From: Oryzomonas sagensis
GTDB lineage: Bacteria > Desulfobacterota > Desulfuromonadia > Geobacterales > Pseudopelobacteraceae
Direction of reading: 5' to 3'
Length of the DNA: 64,000 bases
NCBI RefSeq assembly: GCF_008802355.1
Contig: NZ_VZRA01000001.1
Span: 318,980-382,979 of the forward strand
How positions within the stretch are numbered: position 1 is the first letter of the stretch; every line of letters begins with the position of its first letter. The position numbers and the translations under genes are program-made. The notes beneath the pieces were generated by a model. It was given only the letters and a program-made list of their open reading frames with translations, was not told the DNA's origin and did not search any database. Of this stretch, positions 2,476 to 51,306 are shown in pieces.

Positions 2476-2596
2476 AGGTCGTTGAAAAACAGCCATCTCG
2501 CCGCCGTCCTCGAAAACCCCTTGTGCGACGTAGCGCTGCTACGCCTCCGCGGGGTTTTTCTGCGGGTGCGACGATCTGACTATTTTTGAACGACCT
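2476..2596 (+). repeat. Palindromic MITE/REP-like element, copy 1
   Basis: This 121-bp element is an imperfect palindrome over its whole length. Its outer ends are AGGTCGTT and AACGACCT, its middle stem pairs GAAAACCCC with GGGGTTTTTC, and its core is GCGTAGC...GCTACGC-like. It is closely similar to copy 4 (17929-18049), and differences fall in paired positions. It lies between the sfrA stop and the radical SAM start. Confidence 0.9.
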
Positions 2597-5222: not shown

Positions 5223-5279
5223 GTGCAACTCCAGACTTTAAGTGCTATTTTTCTCTTAGCAGGCTATTCAAAAATTCAT

Positions 5280-5479: not shown

Positions 5480-7501
5480 CTACACAACCGCCATGGCCAT
5501 GCGGTAGCAGCGCAAACACCGGTCGGCCTCGGCCTGGGCAGTGCTGTCGCTGAAACCCAGTTCGACCTCGTTGTAGTTCTTGAGGCCGGCCCGCTCTCTG
5601 CCGTGGACCTCTTTCTGGTTGGCGCGCCCGGCGGCATCGAGCCAGGCCACCTTCTCGCCCTTGTCGTATACCCCCAGGTAGGTTAAGAGGTCGTCAAAGA
5701 TATCGTCTTCGGTGAGATAGGCCTTGCCCTCCTCCAGCCAGCGCTGGATTACCCGGGCGGCACGGTGAGCATTGCCCACGCAGGCCACCACGGTCAGGGG
5801 GCCGATCTCGGCGTCGCCGCCGGCAAAGACCCCGTCGCAGTCGGTCATGAGGAAGCGGGAGAGCGGGTTGCCCATGCCGTCCTTGAGATCCTTTCCCGCC
5901 GCATCCTTGAGGGACAGGTGCCTGGTGACCACCGTATTCCACTTGCTGATGTCGATGCCCATATCGGGGGGAATGAACCCCAGGTCGGCGTCCTGGCCGA
6001 TGGCCGGGATGACCGTGTCGCACTCGATGACGAACTCGCTGCCCGCCATCGGTTCGGGACGGCGGCGGCCGGAGGCGTCGGGCTCTCCCAACTCCATGCG
6101 GACGCATTCCACGCCGACCACCTCGTGCTGCTCGTTGGCGATGATCCGGGTGGGGAGCACCTGGAACTCGAACTGGACCCCCTCCTCGTCGGCGCCGTCC
6201 ACCTCCCACACATCGGCAGGCATCTCCTTGCGGGAGCGGCGGTAGACCAGGTAGGAGTCCTGGGCACCTTCGCGCAGGGCGACCCGGACGCAGTCGATGG
6301 CGGTATTGCCCCCACCGACCACCACGACCTTCTTGCCCATGCCGGTCGGCTTGCCCATGTAGGCCTCACGCAGGAAGTCGATCCCCCCCTTGAGGAAGCC
6401 CTTGTACCCCTTGTCCTCCCCTTCCACACCCATGGGCTTGGAGCGGTGGGCGCCGGGGGCGATGAACACCGAGTCGTGCTTCTTCTTCAGGTCGGCCAGG
6501 GAGATGTCCGTGCCGACGCGGCAGTTATAGACGATCTCGACCCCCAGGGACTGGATGATGTCGATGTCGCGTTGCAGGATCGTGCGCGGCATGCGGTAGG
6601 CCGGGATGCCGACCGCGATCATGCCGCCGCCGTACCCTTCCGGCAGCGCCTCGTAGATGGTGCAGGGGTATCCTTCCAGGGCCAGGTAATAGGCGGCGGC
6701 CAGACCGGCAGGACCGGCGCCCACGATGCCGACGGTCTTGCTCTTCCGCGGCTTGGGCTGCATGGGGGGGGCAAGTTTGTGCACTCGTTCGTAATCCGAG
6801 GCGGATCGTTTGAGCACCATGATGTTGATGGCATCATCCACGTTCTTGCGGCGGCAGGCGCTCTCGCAGGGGTGGGGGCAGACCCGCCCGCAGACGGCCG
6901 GGAGCGGCATGTTCTCGCGGATGGTGGCCAGGGAATCGGAAAAACGGAGGTTCTTGATATCCTCGATGTACCGGGGGATGTCGATATGGGACGGGCATCT
7001 GTCCATGCAGGGGGCGGTGATCCTGTGGAGGTATCCGTCGGTGTTGTTGACCGCACGCCGTTCATGGAGGCGGGTGACGAATTCGGCGCGGTAGTGTTGT
7101 ACCGCATCGAAGACCGGCACCGTGGCGCTCTGGCACAGGGTGCACTTGCAATTCCTGAGCAGTTCCGCCAGATCCCCGACCATGTCCAGGTCGGTCTCTT
7201 TGGCCGTACCGTCCAACACCCCCTTGAGCAGGTCCATCAACACCTTGGTGCCCTTCTTGCCCGGCGTGCACTTGCCGCAGCAGTACAGGGTCTGGACGCG
7301 CTTCATGTACTCGGCCGTCATGGCCGGCACATCAACCGTCTTGTCGAACAGAATGATGCCATCCCACCCCATGAACGCGCGCAAGGGACGTTCGCCGTCA
7401 AAGGCCGCCGGCAGCTTGAAGGCGACCGCCTGCGGTTCACCGGAAACATTCCTGTTGTCAACGACGTTTCTGCCCCACGTGGAAAAGAGTACTGAAGACA
7501 C
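5480..7501 (-). CDS. sfrB: SfrB/GltD-like FAD-NAD(P)H oxidoreductase subunit
   Basis: The 673-residue protein starts with a NuoF-like 4Fe-4S domain (CCGKCTPG at 74-81; CKCTLC at 118-123). A GltD-type double-cluster domain follows (CMDRC at 165-169; CGRVCPHPCESAC at 204-216), then an FAD site (GAGPAGLAAAYYL near 261) and an NADPH site (GGGNTAID at 396-403). This is the SfrB design of Geobacter, where the flavoprotein oxidises NADPH and passes electrons to SfrA. GTG 7501 is chosen because GGAGG sits 5 bases upstream; the frame stays open to a TTG at 7552 that lacks this site. sfrA follows, separated by repeat copy 2. Confidence 0.82.
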   Translation of the reverse strand: MSSVLFSTWGRNVVDNRNVSGEPQAVAFKLPAAFDGERPLRAFMGWDGIILFDKTVDVPAMTAEYMKRVQTLYCCGKCTPGKKGTKVLMDLLKGVLDGTAKETDLDMVGDLAELLRNCKCTLCQSATVPVFDAVQHYRAEFVTRLHERRAVNNTDGYLHRITAPCMDRCPSHIDIPRYIEDIKNLRFSDSLATIRENMPLPAVCGRVCPHPCESACRRKNVDDAINIMVLKRSASDYERVHKLAPPMQPKPRKSKTVGIVGAGPAGLAAAYYLALEGYPCTIYEALPEGYGGGMIAVGIPAYRMPRTILQRDIDIIQSLGVEIVYNCRVGTDISLADLKKKHDSVFIAPGAHRSKPMGVEGEDKGYKGFLKGGIDFLREAYMGKPTGMGKKVVVVGGGNTAIDCVRVALREGAQDSYLVYRRSRKEMPADVWEVDGADEEGVQFEFQVLPTRIIANEQHEVVGVECVRMELGEPDASGRRRPEPMAGSEFVIECDTVIPAIGQDADLGFIPPDMGIDISKWNTVVTRHLSLKDAAGKDLKDGMGNPLSRFLMTDCDGVFAGGDAEIGPLTVVACVGNAHRAARVIQRWLEEGKAYLTEDDIFDDLLTYLGVYDKGEKVAWLDAAGRANQKEVHGRERAGLKNYNEVELGFSDSTAQAEADRCLRCYRMAMAVV

Positions 7502-9010: not shown

Positions 9011-9844
9011 ATGAGTAATCCACTCACCCTCGGTTTTTCCCCCTGTCCCAACGATACCTTCATGTTCTACCCCCTCGTCCACGATCTGGTGGACACCCGC
9101 GGCATCTCCTACCGGGAGCGGTTGGAGGATGTGGAGACCCTCAACCAGTTGGCCCTCAAGGGTGAGTTGGACGTCACCAAGGTTTCCTACCACGCCCTGG
9201 GGCATATCCGCGATGAGTACGCCCTGCTCCGCTCCGGCAGCGCCCTGGGACGGGGCTGCGGGCCGCTCCTGGTGGCAAAAGACCCCATAGATCCCAACGA
9301 TCTGCGCGACAAGACCATCGCGATCCCGGGACGCTTGACCACGGCGCTGCTCTTGTTGCGCATGTTCGATCCCACCCTGAAAAATTTCCTGGTCATGCCC
9401 TTCAACGAGATCATGGATGCCGTCCTGAACGGCAACGTGGACGCCGGCGTGATCATCCACGAATCCCGTTTTACCTACCAGGGGTTCGGCCTGCACAAGA
9501 TGCTCGACCTGGGGGAGTGGTGGGAACGGGAGAGCGGCCTGCCGATCCCCCTGGGGGGTATCGTCGCCAGGCGTTCCCTGGGGGCAGACACCATCGCCGC
9601 CATCGAGGGGGCCCTGCGGGACGGGGTGGCCTACTCCCGGGCCAACCCCGCCGCCGCGGCCCATTACATCCGTGAGCACGCCCAGGAGATGAACGCAGAG
9701 GTCTGCTCGGCCCACATCGGCCTGTATGTCAACGACTTCTCCAGCGATCTGGGGGACGAGGGGATCAGGGCCATTCAGTGCCTCATGGAACGGGCCGAGA
9801 AGACGGGCATTGTCCCGACCTCCACGGCGCCGCTTTTTGGCTAG
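9011..9844 (+). CDS. mqnD: 1,4-dihydroxy-6-naphthoate synthase MqnD
   Basis: The 277-residue protein begins with the MqnD signature GFSPCPNDTFMFYPLVH and continues with the periplasmic-binding-protein-like fold of the family. MqnD converts cyclic dehypoxanthinyl futalosine to 1,4-dihydroxy-6-naphthoate in the futalosine route to menaquinone. MqnA lacks this N-terminal motif, which decides between the two. CGGAG lies 6 bases before the ATG. Repeat copy 3 begins one base after its stop. Another gene of the pathway, mqnB, lies 15 kb away. Confidence 0.9.
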   Translation: MSNPLTLGFSPCPNDTFMFYPLVHDLVDTRGISYRERLEDVETLNQLALKGELDVTKVSYHALGHIRDEYALLRSGSALGRGCGPLLVAKDPIDPNDLRDKTIAIPGRLTTALLLLRMFDPTLKNFLVMPFNEIMDAVLNGNVDAGVIIHESRFTYQGFGLHKMLDLGEWWERESGLPIPLGGIVARRSLGADTIAAIEGALRDGVAYSRANPAAAAHYIREHAQEMNAEVCSAHIGLYVNDFSSDLGDEGIRAIQCLMERAEKTGIVPTSTAPLFG

Positions 9845-9845
9845 G

Positions 9846-10031
9846 AGGTTGTTGAAAAACAGCCATCAGGCCTTCGTCCTCGAAGGCCCTTTTGTGACTG
9901 AGGCCTTTGGCCTCACCCTGCGGGCGCCTTCGCGGTCCAATTCCACGAGTGAAATTGTGCGGCGTAGCGCTGCTACGCCTCCGCAAGGCCTGTCGAGCGG
10001 GTGCGACGATCTGACTATTTTTGAACAACTT
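9846..10031 (+). repeat. Palindromic element, copy 3 (extended form)
   Basis: This 186-bp copy has the same ends as the other copies but carries an extra module of about 65 bp. That module contains the small palindromes GAGGCCTTTGGCCTC and TTTC/TTCC-ACGAGTGAAA, and copy 5 has it too. The core GCGTAGCGCTGCTACGC is intact. It starts one base after the mqnD stop and may act as its 3' structure. The rest of the 326-bp gap to the next gene shows only the 18-nt repeat listed at 10072. Confidence 0.9.
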
Positions 10032-16673: not shown

Positions 16674-17221
16674 GACGGATTCCCCTCATCTCCACCCCCT
16701 CTCCCCGGGGGAGAGGGTGGCCGAAGGCCGGGTGAGGGGGAATCTTGCCGCCCCAAATACAAAGCCCCCACTAAAGCAAACAGAAGCTGTAACGAAACCA
16801 GTTCCACCGCCAGACCGTGATCCTCAAACAGGCGCCGGGCCACCTCGCGGATCGGCAGGGCCGGGGCCGGTGCTGCGGAACCACGGCGGGAGACGATGAC
16901 GACCGCCAGGGAGGCGATGCTCGCCCCGGCCAGCACCAGGGCCGACAGCCACTGGCGCCACCGGGGTGCGACCCCTTTTTCCGGGTGCCCCAGGTCGAGC
17001 ATCATGATCACGAACAGGAACAGCACCATGATGGCCCCGGCGTAGAGGATCACCTCGAAGGCCGCCACCAGCGGCGCCATCAGCAGGTAAAAGATCACCG
17101 CGATGGAGAACAGGGAGGTGACCAGGTACAGGATGGCATGCACCGGGTGTTTCTCGGTAATGGCCAGGATCGTGCCGATAACGGCCACGCCTGCCAGTAT
17201 GTAGAAGATGATCTGTTCCAT
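16670..17221 (-). CDS. nuoJ: NADH-quinone oxidoreductase subunit J, with repeat-encoded tail
   Basis: The 183-residue protein has five membrane segments, including AFEVILYAGAIMVLFLFVIMML, typed here as two parts: AFEVILYAGA and IMVLFLFVIMML. The normal NuoJ end (ELVSLQLLFALVGALYLG) is followed by about 24 residues rich in P, G and S. These are encoded by a CCCTCTCCCC/GGGGAGAGGG repeat at 16678-16745. The tail is therefore probably a late insertion that replaced the original stop. Complex I function is likely kept because the core is intact. Confidence 0.92.
   Translation of the reverse strand: MEQIIFYILAGVAVIGTILAITEKHPVHAILYLVTSLFSIAVIFYLLMAPLVAAFEVILYAGAIMVLFLFVIMMLDLGHPEKGVAPRWRQWLSALVLAGASIASLAVVIVSRRGSAAPAPALPIREVARRLFEDHGLAVELVSLQLLFALVGALYLGRQDSPSPGLRPPSPPGRGGGDEGNPS
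16678..16745. repeat. CCCTCTCCC/GGGTGAGGG repeat inside nuoJ
   Basis: CCCCTCTCCCC and GGGGAGAGGG form a strong hairpin, followed by GGCCGAAGGCC and GGGTGAGGG. The same elements recur nested in copies 2 and 5 of the palindromic family (5337-5412; 49575-49660). Here the repeat is read as coding sequence for the end of NuoJ. Confidence 0.85.
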
Positions 17222-17235
17222 AGTTCAATTCATTT

Positions 17236-17364
17236 TGCCGCGGAGACGCAGAGGCGCAGAGAGACAGGGGAATTCAACAGCAAGAGACAACTATACCCGA
17301 AAAAAAGCGTTCCGCCTTTCTCTCTGTTTTTTTGTTTCCTCTGTGTCTCTGTGTCTCCGTGGCA
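17236..17364. repeat. Inverted CACAGAG-type hairpin repeat between nuoI and nuoJ
   Basis: The left arm (TGCCGCGGAGACGCAGAGG...) and the right arm (...CTCTGTGTCTCCGTGGCA) form an imperfect inverted repeat of about 30 nt around an A/T-rich centre. It fills the 159-bp gap between nuoI and nuoJ. The neighbouring nuo genes from nuoJ to nuoN overlap or lie within 12 bases of each other. A related element is at 57291-57440. Confidence 0.8.
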
Positions 17365-17380
17365 GATTCGATTTCCGCCG

Positions 17381-17911
17381 TTACGGCATCAACGACCTGG
17401 CATCCACCGGCGGATTTTCCTCCACCCCCTCGCCCCGGGGCTGGGTCACGGCGATACCGGCATGGCGGTAGAAGTTGTAGGAATCGTCCTTGCCGCAGCC
17501 ATCGATCAGCAGGTCCTCTTTTTCATAAACCAAGTCCATGATGTCCCGCTTGCAGATCTCGAAATCGGGGGTCATCTGGATGGCCAGGGTCGGGCAGGCC
17601 TCAGCGCACAGGCCGCAGAAGATGCAGCGGGAGAAGTTGATCCGGAACCATGCGGCATAGCGGCGGCCATCCGCCCCTTCGGCGGCCTGCATGGAGATGC
17701 AGTCCACGGGACAGGCGGCGGAACAGAGGTAGCAGGCCACGCAGCGCTCGCCGCCGTCCGGGTCGCGGGTCAGCACGATCCGCGCCCGGTAACGCGGGTA
17801 CGGGGTGCGTTTTTCCTCGGGATACTGGATGGTGACCGGCCGGCGCAGCATGTGCGCCAGGGTGATGCGGAAACCGCCCAGGATGGCCCGTATGTCGGAG
17901 AATATCGGCAT
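17381..17911 (-). CDS. nuoI: NADH-quinone oxidoreductase subunit I
   Basis: The 176-residue protein carries two 4Fe-4S ferredoxin motifs, [15 protein letters not shown] and [12 protein letters not shown], for clusters N6a and N6b of complex I. It starts with the amphipathic membrane-contact helix typical of NuoI. It is separated from nuoH by the ankyrin gene, a terminator and repeat copy 4, which is unusual. Its own promoter is not obvious. Repeat copy 4 lies just upstream of its start. Confidence 0.95.
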
Positions 17912-17928
17912 GGTTCGTTCTTCTAAAG

Positions 17929-18049
17929 AGGTTGTTGAAAAACAGCCATCTCGCCGCCGTCCTCGAAAGCCCTTTTGTGCGGCGTAGCGCTGCTACGCCT
18001 CCGCAGGGCTTTCTGCGGGTGCGACGATCTGACTATTTTTGAACAACCT
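17929..18049 (+). repeat. Palindromic element, copy 4
   Basis: This 121-bp copy is the cleanest member. Its ends are AGGTTGTT and AACAACCT, its middle stem is GAAAGCCCT with AGGGCTTTC, and its core is GCGTAGC-GCT-GCTACGC. It lies inside the nuo operon, 17 bases upstream of nuoI. Compared with copy 1, the changes occur on both sides of the stems. Confidence 0.92.
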
Positions 18050-18068
18050 GGGTTTTTCAACAGTTTGT

Positions 18069-47821: not shown

Positions 47822-48053
47822 CATCCGGGCGGCCGGACATACGCCAGCCGCAGGGCACAACCGGAATGCGGAAAAAGTATCCACTTTTTTGAACGACCCG
47901 CCGGATCTGTTGTAACCGAATGCCGATTTCTTCCGTCTTCCCTGCATTCCCTGCGGCGAAGGGGACTACCGCATGCAGCCATCACCCGTGGCGCAGCATC
48001 GGCAGCTCCAACAGCACCATCTGCCCCACCCCTTCTCGAAAAAAGGAGCATTC

Positions 48054-49502
48054 ATGAAAATAGCCCTCCGTGTACTCATTACCCTGGCCTTCACCCTGAC
48101 CGCCGTATTCCCTGCCGCGGCCGCCCCGTTCAAAAAACTGGACAAACCGCCGCTTTCGGAACGCTGGTTCGGGATCTATGTGGACAACGAGCGGGTCGGC
48201 TTCTATCGCCAGGCGATCTCCGAGGCCCCCGATGGCTACCGGATCGAGGGTGACGGCAGTGTGCGCATGAAGGTCATGGGCTTTTCCAAGGAATCGTCGA
48301 TGCGCGAGACCTATCTGGTGGGCAAAGGCCTCGCCCTGCGCTCCTTCGAGGTGGAGCAGGCCATCAACGGCAGCGCCTCGCGCATCTCCGGCAAGGTTGC
48401 GAGCAACATCATGCGCATCACCAGCGTGGCCAACGGCAAGAAAACGGAAAAACAGCTCAAATACAAAGGCGAGGTCTATCCCGGACCAGTGCTCAACCTC
48501 TACCCCCTGATGCGCGACCCCTCTCCCGGCAAATCCTTCACCACCCTGACCTTTGATCCCGAGGAGGTCAAGATCAAGGAGGTCAAGATCAGCGTCCTGG
48601 GGCAGGAGAAGACGCCCGACTCCCAGCCGGCCCTCAAGTTGCGCAACAACCTGTACCCCTTCGTCAACAACGACATCTGGGTGGACGACCAGGGGAACAC
48701 CCTTCGGGAATCGGTGCGGGACGGCCTGGTGATCACCAGGGCCGAGGAGCCCAAGCAGCTCGGTTCGTTTGTGGGAGGACTGGCCCTGGCCAAGAAGGAC
48801 CTGATCTATGATTTCAGCCTGGTGCGTGCCGAACCGCCCATCAGGGATTCCAAGAAGCTGACCGGCCTCAGTGTGGAAATCAGCGGCTGGAACGACAATC
48901 TGCCGCTCCGGCGGGATGGCGGCCAGACGGTCGAGAAGAGCGGCGAGGGCAGGATCGTCATCAAAACCGGGGGGGCCGTTCCGGAAACGGCGGCCCAGGG
49001 CAAACCGGCGACTCCCCAGGAGAGCTACCTGAAACCGGCGGAGAAGATCGAATCCGATGCGCCGGAGATCGCGGCCAAGGCCAAGGAACTTGCAACCGGC
49101 AAGAAGGAACCGCTGGAGATCGCCAGGACGCTGGCCTCATGGACCTCCGACTGGCTGCATGACACGGTGGAAGACGGGGGGGGCGCGCTTGCCAGCTTCA
49201 AATCCCGCAACGGCAACTGCCAGACCCATGCCCGTCTCTACACGGCCCTGGCCCGGGCGGCCGGCATCCCGACCCGTTTCGTGTCGGGGCTGGTCTACCT
49301 GGACGGCAAGGGCTTCCTCTACCACAGTTGGGCCGAGAGCCTGCTGAACGGGCGCTGGGTGGCCATCGATCCGACCTATGACCAAGTGCCGGCCGACCCG
49401 ACCCACCTGAAGCTCTTGGAAGGGCACCTGCCGGAGGATATGGCGCCGATCATCACCATCATCGGCAGGATTCACCTCAAGGTGCTGGAAGCCAAGTACT
49501 AA
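48054..49502 (+). CDS. Exported transglutaminase-like protein
   Basis: The 482-residue protein has a signal peptide (to AAAAP, about residue 24). A long N-terminal beta-rich region follows, then a C-terminal transglutaminase-like cysteine protease fold with Cys in NGNCQTHARLYTALARAAGI, His in LYHSWAE and Asp in AIDPTYDQ. AAGGAG lies 5 bases before the ATG. Substrate and role are unknown; such proteins often act on envelope peptides. Repeat copy 5 follows. Confidence 0.82.
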   Translation: MKIALRVLITLAFTLTAVFPAAAAPFKKLDKPPLSERWFGIYVDNERVGFYRQAISEAPDGYRIEGDGSVRMKVMGFSKESSMRETYLVGKGLALRSFEVEQAINGSASRISGKVASNIMRITSVANGKKTEKQLKYKGEVYPGPVLNLYPLMRDPSPGKSFTTLTFDPEEVKIKEVKISVLGQEKTPDSQPALKLRNNLYPFVNNDIWVDDQGNTLRESVRDGLVITRAEEPKQLGSFVGGLALAKKDLIYDFSLVRAEPPIRDSKKLTGLSVEISGWNDNLPLRRDGGQTVEKSGEGRIVIKTGGAVPETAAQGKPATPQESYLKPAEKIESDAPEIAAKAKELATGKKEPLEIARTLASWTSDWLHDTVEDGGGALASFKSRNGNCQTHARLYTALARAAGIPTRFVSGLVYLDGKGFLYHSWAESLLNGRWVAIDPTYDQVPADPTHLKLLEGHLPEDMAPIITIIGRIHLKVLEAKY

Positions 49503-49520
49503 GAGGTTGTTGATAACCCC

Positions 49521-49784
49521 AGGTTGTTCAAAAATAGTCAGATCGTCGCCTCCGCGAGACAAGCCCCGCGGAGGCCCTCACCCGGCCTTTGGCCACCCTC
49601 TCCCGGAGGGAGAGGGTAACGGTATCCCTTCTCCCTTTGGGAGAAGGACAGGATGAGGGGCGCTACGCCGCACAATTTCACTCGTGAAATTGGACCGCGA
49701 AGGCGCCCGAAGGGTGAGGCCAAAGGCCTCAGTCACAAGGCGGCTTTCGAGGATGAAGGCCTGATGGCTGTTTTTCAACAACCT
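49521..49784 (-). repeat. Palindromic element, copy 5, extended and with nested repeat
   Basis: This 264-bp copy has the family ends in reverse orientation and the extra module shared with copy 3. The GAGGCCTTTGGCCTC-type and TTTCACGAGTGAAA palindromes are inside. A nested repeat (about 49575-49660) with two CTCTCCC/CTTCTCCC hairpins and GGGTGAGGG splits its core. It ends one base from the ehrL stop. An extra partial end (aggttgttgat) sits at 49504-49514. Confidence 0.9.
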
Positions 49785-49785
49785 G

Positions 49786-51306
49786 CTAAAGGTCGAACCC
49801 GCAGTAGGAGAGATTGAAGCTCTTGTTGCAGATGGGGAAATCGGATATCTGCCCGCCACGCAACGCCATGGCCAGGCCGGACCAGTTGTGGAACGAGGGG
49901 TCCGTGACCTTGTAGCGCAGGAATTTTCCCGCCCCATCGGTGATGGCCACGTGGCAGACCTCGCCACGCCATCCCTCGACCAGCGCCACGGCCAGACGCC
50001 CCTTCCCCACCTGCCCGCAGGCCGACAGGCAGTCGCCCCCCGGCAGCGAACCGAGCCGGTCAAGGCAGAACTCCATCGAGACCTGGGACTCCTTCCAGCG
50101 CACCAGCGCCCGGGCCAGGACATCCCCCCCCGGTTCTACGCACACGGGCGGATGAAACGACCGGTAGAGGCCGAATGGGTGGTCGTGGCGCACGTCCCGC
50201 ACGATGCCGCAGGCCCGTACCGCCGGTCCGACCAACCCGAGGGCCAGGGCGTCGTCGCTGCCGACCCGACCGGTCTTTTCAAACCGCGCCATGACCGAGG
50301 GTGAGTCCCACAGCAACTCCACCGCCCCGCCGTAGTCCCGTCTCGCCTCCTCCAGACGTCGCGCCAGTTCGGCCGCCTGGCCCGGCTCGCAACCGAAGTA
50401 CGTACCGCCCGGCCGCACCAGCCCCCGCCCGAAGCGACTGCCGCACAACAGGGCGGTCATGTTGAGAAAATCCCCCCTGATCCTGCCGCAGAAGGACATG
50501 GTCGGCAGAAAGCCCACATCCCCGGCCAACGCCCCCAGGTCGCCGCAATGATTGGCCAGCCGTTCCAGTTCCAGGGCAACGGCCCGGATGGCCTCGGCCT
50601 GGGGAGGCGGCGCCATGCCGGCCAATCCTTCCCGGATCATGGCATAGGCCGTGGCATGGCCGATGGTAGTGTCGCCGGCAATGGTCTCCATCTGGGCCAT
50701 GGAGGCGGCCCGGGGGCCGTTGACCAGCGCCCGTTCGATGCCCCGGTGCTGATATCCCAGGGCGATCTCCAGGTGGAATACCGTCTCGCCGTGGCACTGG
50801 AAACGGAAATGCCCCGGTTCGATGATGCCGGCATGCACCGGACCCACGGCAACCTCGTGGACCTCCTCCCCGCCGATGCGGTAGAAGTCCCCCACGCCGG
50901 GCAGGATCGGCTCGTCCTTTCCCCGTCCCCAGGCATCCCGGGCCCGATCGAGCGACCGTTGGTAACGCACCGGCTTGAACCAGGGGTGGTCGTCCACCGG
51001 GATGCCGCACTGTTCGGCGATCTCCCGTTCGAACAGATGCGCTTCGGGGCAGACAGGGGTAATGCTGGGCAGGCGCCCTTCCACCCACGAGCGGAAGACG
51101 CCCAGGCGCCCCAGGCTCCCCGCCAGGATGCACCACAGGTCAACCCCCTCCCGTTCAGGCACGCCGAAGTAGGAGGCGATGCGCCATCCCATGCCGGTAA
51201 GATCCACGATCCCCTGGAGAAAGACCTCCAGCGCCGTCTCCGGCACATCCTTCACCAGGATGCTCTCGCCGTTTGCCAGGGTATTCAGCATGCTGTCGTC
51301 GCTCAT
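49786..51306 (-). CDS. ehrL: EhrL-like NiFe-hydrogenase-related large subunit (NuoC-NuoD fusion)
   Basis: The 506-residue protein joins a NuoC-like N-terminal part (about 1-170; FEREIAEQCGIP) to a NuoD/HyfG-like body (EPGHFRFQCHGETVFHLEI, GYQHRGIERAL). The two Cys pairs that bind NiFe are missing. Where CxxC should be it has ETIAGDTTIGH, and the C-terminal DPCxxC is DPSFHN. That loss defines the energy-converting hydrogenase-related (Ehr) complexes known from Geobacter and others. The small NuoB-like subunit is absent here. It probably is not a hydrogenase. Confidence 0.82.
   Translation of the reverse strand: MSDDSMLNTLANGESILVKDVPETALEVFLQGIVDLTGMGWRIASYFGVPEREGVDLWCILAGSLGRLGVFRSWVEGRLPSITPVCPEAHLFEREIAEQCGIPVDDHPWFKPVRYQRSLDRARDAWGRGKDEPILPGVGDFYRIGGEEVHEVAVGPVHAGIIEPGHFRFQCHGETVFHLEIALGYQHRGIERALVNGPRAASMAQMETIAGDTTIGHATAYAMIREGLAGMAPPPQAEAIRAVALELERLANHCGDLGALAGDVGFLPTMSFCGRIRGDFLNMTALLCGSRFGRGLVRPGGTYFGCEPGQAAELARRLEEARRDYGGAVELLWDSPSVMARFEKTGRVGSDDALALGLVGPAVRACGIVRDVRHDHPFGLYRSFHPPVCVEPGGDVLARALVRWKESQVSMEFCLDRLGSLPGGDCLSACGQVGKGRLAVALVEGWRGEVCHVAITDGAGKFLRYKVTDPSFHNWSGLAMALRGGQISDFPICNKSFNLSYCGFDL

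Follow-up and report, generated by a model that had tools for sequence, protein, structure and literature searches.

The palindromic repeats dispersed through this part of the Oryzomonas sagensis genome are IS5-type MITEs, a new family of a known kind and not a new structure-copying system. An IS5-family (DUF772/DDE) transposase acting in trans very probably moves them. The end repeats and the YTAR target duplications indicate a DDE enzyme of this family as the mover. IS5-type ends and a YTAR target thus provide a likely source for a high-copy palindrome that would otherwise resemble a regulatory RNA or a REP.

The window, that is, the whole stretch of 64,000 nucleotides analysed, has a G+C content of 64% and belongs to a genome of 3.61 Mb in 18 contigs. 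An earlier note on this DNA had described five copies sharing both ends, and all five lie where they were placed (Table 1); the search for the ends gave nine matches, where chance would give 0.02. Copy 2 differs in ending in GGCTATTTTTGAACAACCT and copy 3 in ending in AACTT. Copies 2 and 5 are on the minus strand. Copies 1 and 4 have a 121-nt form, and extra internal palindromes are present in copies 2, 3, and 5 (198, 186, and 264 nt, respectively).

Table 1. Copies of the repeat in the window, with their tails and target repeats, and the single Y1 transposase gene of the host genome.
Feature	Position	Strand	Remarks
Copy 1, 121-nt core	2476..2596	+	Right tail 2597-2616 degenerate
Copy 2, core with palindromic insert B2 in loop	5280..5477	-	Stop of upstream ORF at 5480-5482
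Copy 2, right tail (outer inverted repeat)	5260..5279	-	Followed by CTAA (minus strand) 5256-5259; tail identical in G002
Copy 3, core with insert A	9846..10031	+	Directly 3' of TAG stop 9842-9844, ORF 9011-9844
Copy 4, left target repeat TAAA	17924..17927	+	Contains stop 17924-17926 of ORF 16817-17926
Copy 4, whole element	17928..18067	+	17928-18049 is left terminal repeat plus core; 18050-18067 is right tail GGGTTTTTCAACAGTTTG
Copy 4, right target repeat TAAA	18068..18071	+	Matches left repeat
Copy 5, target repeat CTAA	49499..49502	+	49500-49502 is the stop of ORF 47973-49502
Copy 5, whole element	49503..49785	-	Core 49521-49784 (contains inserts A and B) lies between tail 49503-49520 and terminal base 49785
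Copy 5, other target repeat, TTAG on minus strand	49786..49789	-	49786-49788 is the stop of minus-strand ORF 49786-51306
Single Y1 transposase gene	L071 2801-3739 = G000:C1 ~1397800-1398738		Flanked by 45-nt inverted repeat at 82% (GGGTCAGGTCTCCAAAATTCAAAT...)

The family is far larger than the five members first proposed. Genome-wide, there are 52 exact matches to the left end AGGTYGTTGAAAAACAGCC and 15 more with a single mismatch. Once duplicates and four reversed pseudo-pairs had been discarded from the extracted set, 69 copies were left, a count that may miss more degraded ends. The copies fall into size classes of 120–124 nt (35 copies), 184–186 nt (6), 198–201 nt (25), 264 nt (2), and 82 nt (1). 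MITEs are defined as elements of <500 bp with terminal inverted repeats of approximately 4–30 bp and, in younger copies, flanking direct repeats (PMC10969869, accessible text). All 69 cores, at 82–264 bp, are below this length and have no space for a transposase gene. Insert A sits before GTGCGGCGTAGC, inserts B and B2 occupy the apical loop, and the 264-nt copies have both A and B. In the stretches scanned, insert A was seen 16 times within elements and never free. Insert B was seen 26 times within elements and seven times free, with overlapping loci counted repeatedly (a free place near window position 16715 was counted three times). A free-standing relative of insert B (CCCTCTCCC...GGGTGAGGG) lies at approximately 16684–16775 of the window and also in stretches from G003, G004, and G005; it is another palindromic repeat family.

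The mobile unit is bounded by an outer inverted repeat of approximately 16 bp, CAGGYTGTTGAAAAAC. Beyond the right end given in the earlier note, many copies extend by approximately 18–20 nt (GAGTTTTTCAACAGCCTG), an inverted copy of the left end, and YTAR follows. The terminal repeats are CAGGTTGTTGAAAAAC on the left and, as the right-tail consensus, GTTTTTCAACAGCCTG. The tail is recognisable in 45 of the 69 copies. It is more variable than the core, a comparison in which conserved core ends are favoured because the copies were located through them. The mean G+C content is 57% for the cores and 55% for the flanks; AT-richness is called typical of MITEs in the accessible text of PMC10969869, not defining, and these cores are not AT-rich.

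The 4-bp duplication was examined in 222 distinct copies pooled over the loci collected, in which orthologous copies in different species were counted separately. A recognisable tail is present in 154, and 64 of these have TA on both sides. Among the 64, the two sides carry the same third base in 49 copies and the same preceding base in 41 (permutation p <1e-4). For the host genome alone, the flanking 4-mers are identical in 8 of the 45 tailed copies (2.35 expected, p 0.0012), and 25 of 45 show no more than one difference. The consensus of the target duplication is YTAR, which is the IS5 target motif according to the accessible text of PMC10359306. Some empty sites read CTGA or TTCA and not YTAR, and the exact pre-insertion site is not always clear.

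Mobility was assessed by aligning the flanks of the copies to relatives with approximately 80–98% identity. Several orthologous places in sister species are without the whole unit, tail included. When the 69 copies were compared with 1.67 Mb of G002, a relative in the same genus, 22 were not located, 11 places were empty (<80 nt between the flanks), 22 held an element in the same orientation, 10 held one in the opposite orientation, and 4 were otherwise; 11 of the 47 located places are thus empty. In the window, the place of copy 1 has an element in G002–G004 and none in G001 and G005, as judged from orthologous flanks. At the place of copy 2, elements are present in G001–G004, and none in G005. 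The place of copy 4 is without an element in G001, G003, G004, and G005, and G002 has one in the opposite orientation. In G004 (C1, ~294900), a short scar, TTAGCAGGTTGTTGAAAAACAGCCTGTTAG, lies beside the gene end that adjoins copy 5, as if the interior had been deleted between ACAGCC direct repeats.

The elements are closely associated with stop codons. A stop codon is found at −4 to −2 in 47 of the 69 copies, and 30 of these end an open frame of ≥100 codons; neighbouring offsets have only 0–5 stop codons. With one base of leeway, 37 copies abut such an ORF stop on the left and 11 on the right (testable in the 45 tailed copies), and an ORF stop abuts either side in 44 of the 69 and both sides in 4. 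This placement follows from the YTAR target, and since YTAR carries TAA or TAG on both strands, an insertion at a stop codon would regenerate the stop. The elements can therefore pack beside genes harmlessly, even beside two convergent genes, as for copy 5, in which the CTAA repeats at both ends contain the stops of two convergent ORFs.

No gene for the enzyme was found in the host; its presence in the same genome is not among the features that define a MITE. The profiles PF05598, PF01609, and PF13358 have no match in the host genome G000, and the IS5 transposase protein of G095, used as query, has none at E 1e-30. G003, which is in one contig and has 94 exact left ends, gave no PF05598 or PF01609 match and one PF13358 match. 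An IS630-type (PF13358) source was considered and rejected, with no match in G000, G002, or G012. G095, a genome of the same order without the exact left end, has a 1,318-bp IS with the ends CAGGTTGTTGAAAAAC and CAGGCCGTTGAAAAAA and GTAG on both sides. Its protein matches the IS5 family (NF033581, 2.8e-86). The left end is identical to that of the MITE over 16 bp, and the right end has two differences. Relatives of this protein (E 1e-30 or better) are present in 19 of 141 genomes of the order. We examined 17 related ISs (of 30 loci) and found both ends in 16; the 4-bp flanks are identical in 13 of these 16. The flanks are GTAG, TTAG, CTAA (twice), ATAA, TTAA, CTAG, TTAC, and ATAT (five times), that is, five strict YTAR, two NTAR (GTAG and ATAA), five ATAT, and one TTAC. 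The ISs flanked by ATAT have CAGGTCTTTGAAAAAC-like ends, and the ends of several ISs differ from those of the MITE at a few bases. Pelotalea (G012) has both the element and a relative of the G095 IS at 80% identity. Other short elements with the same ends and an unrelated interior are present in the host and its relatives. The partner IS5 transposase has presumably since been lost from the host lineage.

In the mechanism we propose, the transposase would act in trans on the MITE (a core of 82–264 bp plus a tail of approximately 18–20 bp) through the inverted repeats. It would insert the element at YTAR and duplicate those four base pairs; where the target is a stop codon, the duplication would re-create the stop. 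The foldback shape would follow from the paired arms.

The places shared with G002 often have unlike occupants. Of the 32 places occupied in both genomes, those with the same orientation split into 13 pairs that differ by 0–7 core sites and 9 that differ by 11–17. The opposite-orientation pairs have core differences of 1, 4, and then 9–14. Random paralogs differ by a median of 12 sites (5–95% range 6–18). One explanation, to which we give somewhat less than an even chance, is that the interior was exchanged by ectopic gene conversion and not placed by independent insertion. Comparison of the flanks showed that 8 of the 9 paralog-like same-orientation pairs keep a common left boundary, whereas an identical insertion site is evident for only 2 of the 8 paralog-like opposite-orientation pairs (946809 and 1040908). 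Among all ten opposite pairs, the sole further case of this kind is 471346, and the others match on one side only or unclearly. At 1078001, 368745, and 1033038 (and perhaps 387480), non-consensus changes are common to both tails while the cores differ by 12–17 sites, as in random paralogs; the first three suggest that the interior was replaced within an orthologous shell. Of 15 same-orientation pairs with alike tails (at most 6 of 22 differences), six have cores closer to copies of their own genome than to the orthologous copy and nine do not. However, plain conversion cannot account for the two clear opposite-orientation cases, and the tails also differ (15–17 of 22) at 328825, 1111568, 486924, and 222949, where independent insertion may have occurred. 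Elsewhere, independent insertion at a reused site or inversion in place (471346, core distance 4) is possible.

A wider reading of these pairs, which we hold tentatively and consider rather unlikely as a whole, is that the insertion places are stable and their occupants turn over. The interior would be swapped for that of an unrelated copy, with the site and the outer tail kept, either through recombination that uses the shared ends as anchors, with reversal in some cases, or through excision followed by refilling. In its favour, unlike pairs that occupy exactly one site mostly have a common orientation. If it is true, the palindromic interior would serve as an interchangeable cassette and would gather other palindromes as well. 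Places common to two genomes but with unlike occupants are a testable system for the replacement of MITE copies.

The earlier note had inferred from paired changes that the fold itself is under selection or is copied by a structure-reading enzyme. The paired differences quoted between copies 1 and 4 are correct, and the co-change of paired bases stands for the middle stem, where it exceeds shuffled and slid versions. For the rest, the claim is weakened by frequently broken pairs, by an outer stem that is nearly invariant, and by the outcome of a tree-based test. Of 108 unique 121-mers, two with 80% or less identity to the consensus were dropped, and the analysis used the remaining 106 gap-free copies. 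Pairs were counted on the fold of a single copy; RNAalifold gave only local hairpins. In this set, 93.5% of the cells pair, and the two ends are paired in the predicted fold in all 106 copies. In total, 79 cells are changed on both sides yet paired, against 7–22 in versions slid by up to four columns, and none of 300 shuffles attained the observed co-change values, in tests that do not account for the relatedness of the copies. The co-changes are mainly at 38:84, 40:82, and 45:77. Positions 44:78, 50:75, 31:88, and 40:82 are often unpaired (44:78 is paired in 60% and 50:75 in 57%). The outer stem hardly varies; across the 222 copies, the AGGTCGTT change is compensated in two and uncompensated in four.

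The tree-based null consisted of 200 simulations in which parsimony changes were re-dealt over the branches (it is not R-scape). Five predicted pairs have uncorrected p values of 0.005–0.015 (40:82, 58:66, 38:84, 45:77, and 54:70), but no pair is significant over all column pairs. The best predicted pair is 40:82, with E = 2.1, and the other predicted pairs have larger values. The strongest couplings, 48:75 (E 0.065) and the linked neighbours 23/24/28, are not predicted base pairs. Seven clean orthologous pairs, some places being shared, contain 20 stem differences; none is a double change, and eight broke a pair. Compensation in the middle stem is thus real but modest and is no proof of a selected fold. 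The co-changes fit selection for a hairpin and copying between the arms alike, and when a palindrome is mobile, paired changes between its arms are weak support for a functional fold.

It is improbable that the repeat is a structured RNA or a cis-regulatory element (e.g., a terminator) whose fold is kept by selection and whose mobility is secondary. The middle-stem co-changes, the pairing of the ends in every gap-free copy, and the position directly after stop codons would all suit such an element. However, the window has no Rfam match at the gathering threshold, presence and absence vary between sister species, the YTAR target explains the stop codons, and the tree null leaves no pair significant over all column pairs.

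Less probable still is a REP/REPIN-type element whose single-stranded hairpins are copied by a Y1 (TnpA-REP/RAYT) transposase, an enzyme for which the earlier note had proposed a search: the repeats are palindromic, high-copy, and extragenic, have conserved mismatches within the stem, and share the host genome with one Y1_Tnp gene, but this sole gene lies within a 45-nt inverted repeat of its own (GGGTCAGGTCT...), unrelated to the element, copies are present in four relatives without a Y1 match (G064, in one contig and 99% complete, G075, and G081 and G087, both 81% complete), and the 4-bp target duplication contradicts it. To our knowledge, Y1 elements make no target duplication. A Y1 source was rejected on these grounds, and a reading of the repeat as copied through its structure is likewise unsupported.

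IS5-family ISs of the same order (NF033581/PF05598), such as that of G095, are like the repeats in their CAGGYYGTTGAAAAAC-like terminal repeat and 4-bp duplication, which is YTAR in several. They measure approximately 1.32–1.35 kb and have a transposase gene, whereas the repeats are geneless. Our literature search returned no description of this family, which is weak evidence of novelty given its little reach into subscription papers. The closest element in the literature searched is the Chunjie MITE of Geobacter uraniireducens, which is alike in being short, non-autonomous, high-copy, intergenic, of variable size, and in a related host, as described in the accessible text of PMC10969869. Chunjie measures 178–235 bp (PMC10969869). 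The exact left end was not found in G082 (5.1 Mb; its genus is shared with Geotalea relatives). The Correia elements of Neisseria (PMC10969869, accessible text) are likewise MITEs of similar size in many copies; the host differs. REPINs and RAYT-associated REPs are also palindromic, dispersed, and extragenic, as far as the accessible parts of PMC3116915 and PMC2817692 describe them, but they are linked to Y1, whereas the repeats have DDE-type ends and a target duplication.

The exact left end is present in 22 of the 97 genomes searched, the host included, with a patchy distribution that reaches other families of the order, with other inserts. At least one of the 22 is a chance match, that in G023, where there is no element. 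Similar plasmid DNA was not found for two query sequences. In an exact scan of named genomes with 22 nt, the matches listed include Oryzomonas, Pelotalea, Geotalea, and Geobacter records and the MAG Nitrospirae bacterium GWC2_56_14. The left-end matches in this MAG lie on three contigs (L212, L229, and L239) and may reflect either transfer across phyla or mis-binning.

At L165 3831-3973 (G000:C2 ~139830-139972), a second short element combines the family's terminal repeats with an unrelated interior, and similar short elements with the same ends were seen in Pelotalea (L202) and in G069 (L371 and L376). The IMG/VR viral contig L306 terminates, at its two ends, in inverted copies of the beginning of an IS that has the same terminal repeat and an ORF start of MRGKPQAQPDFLTV... 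In Pelotalea chapellei (L174, L205, and L225), several copies break off in or close to the apical loop and continue into one common sequence (TTGTATGTTGGACTGACAG...), which is probably an IS that landed in the palindrome.
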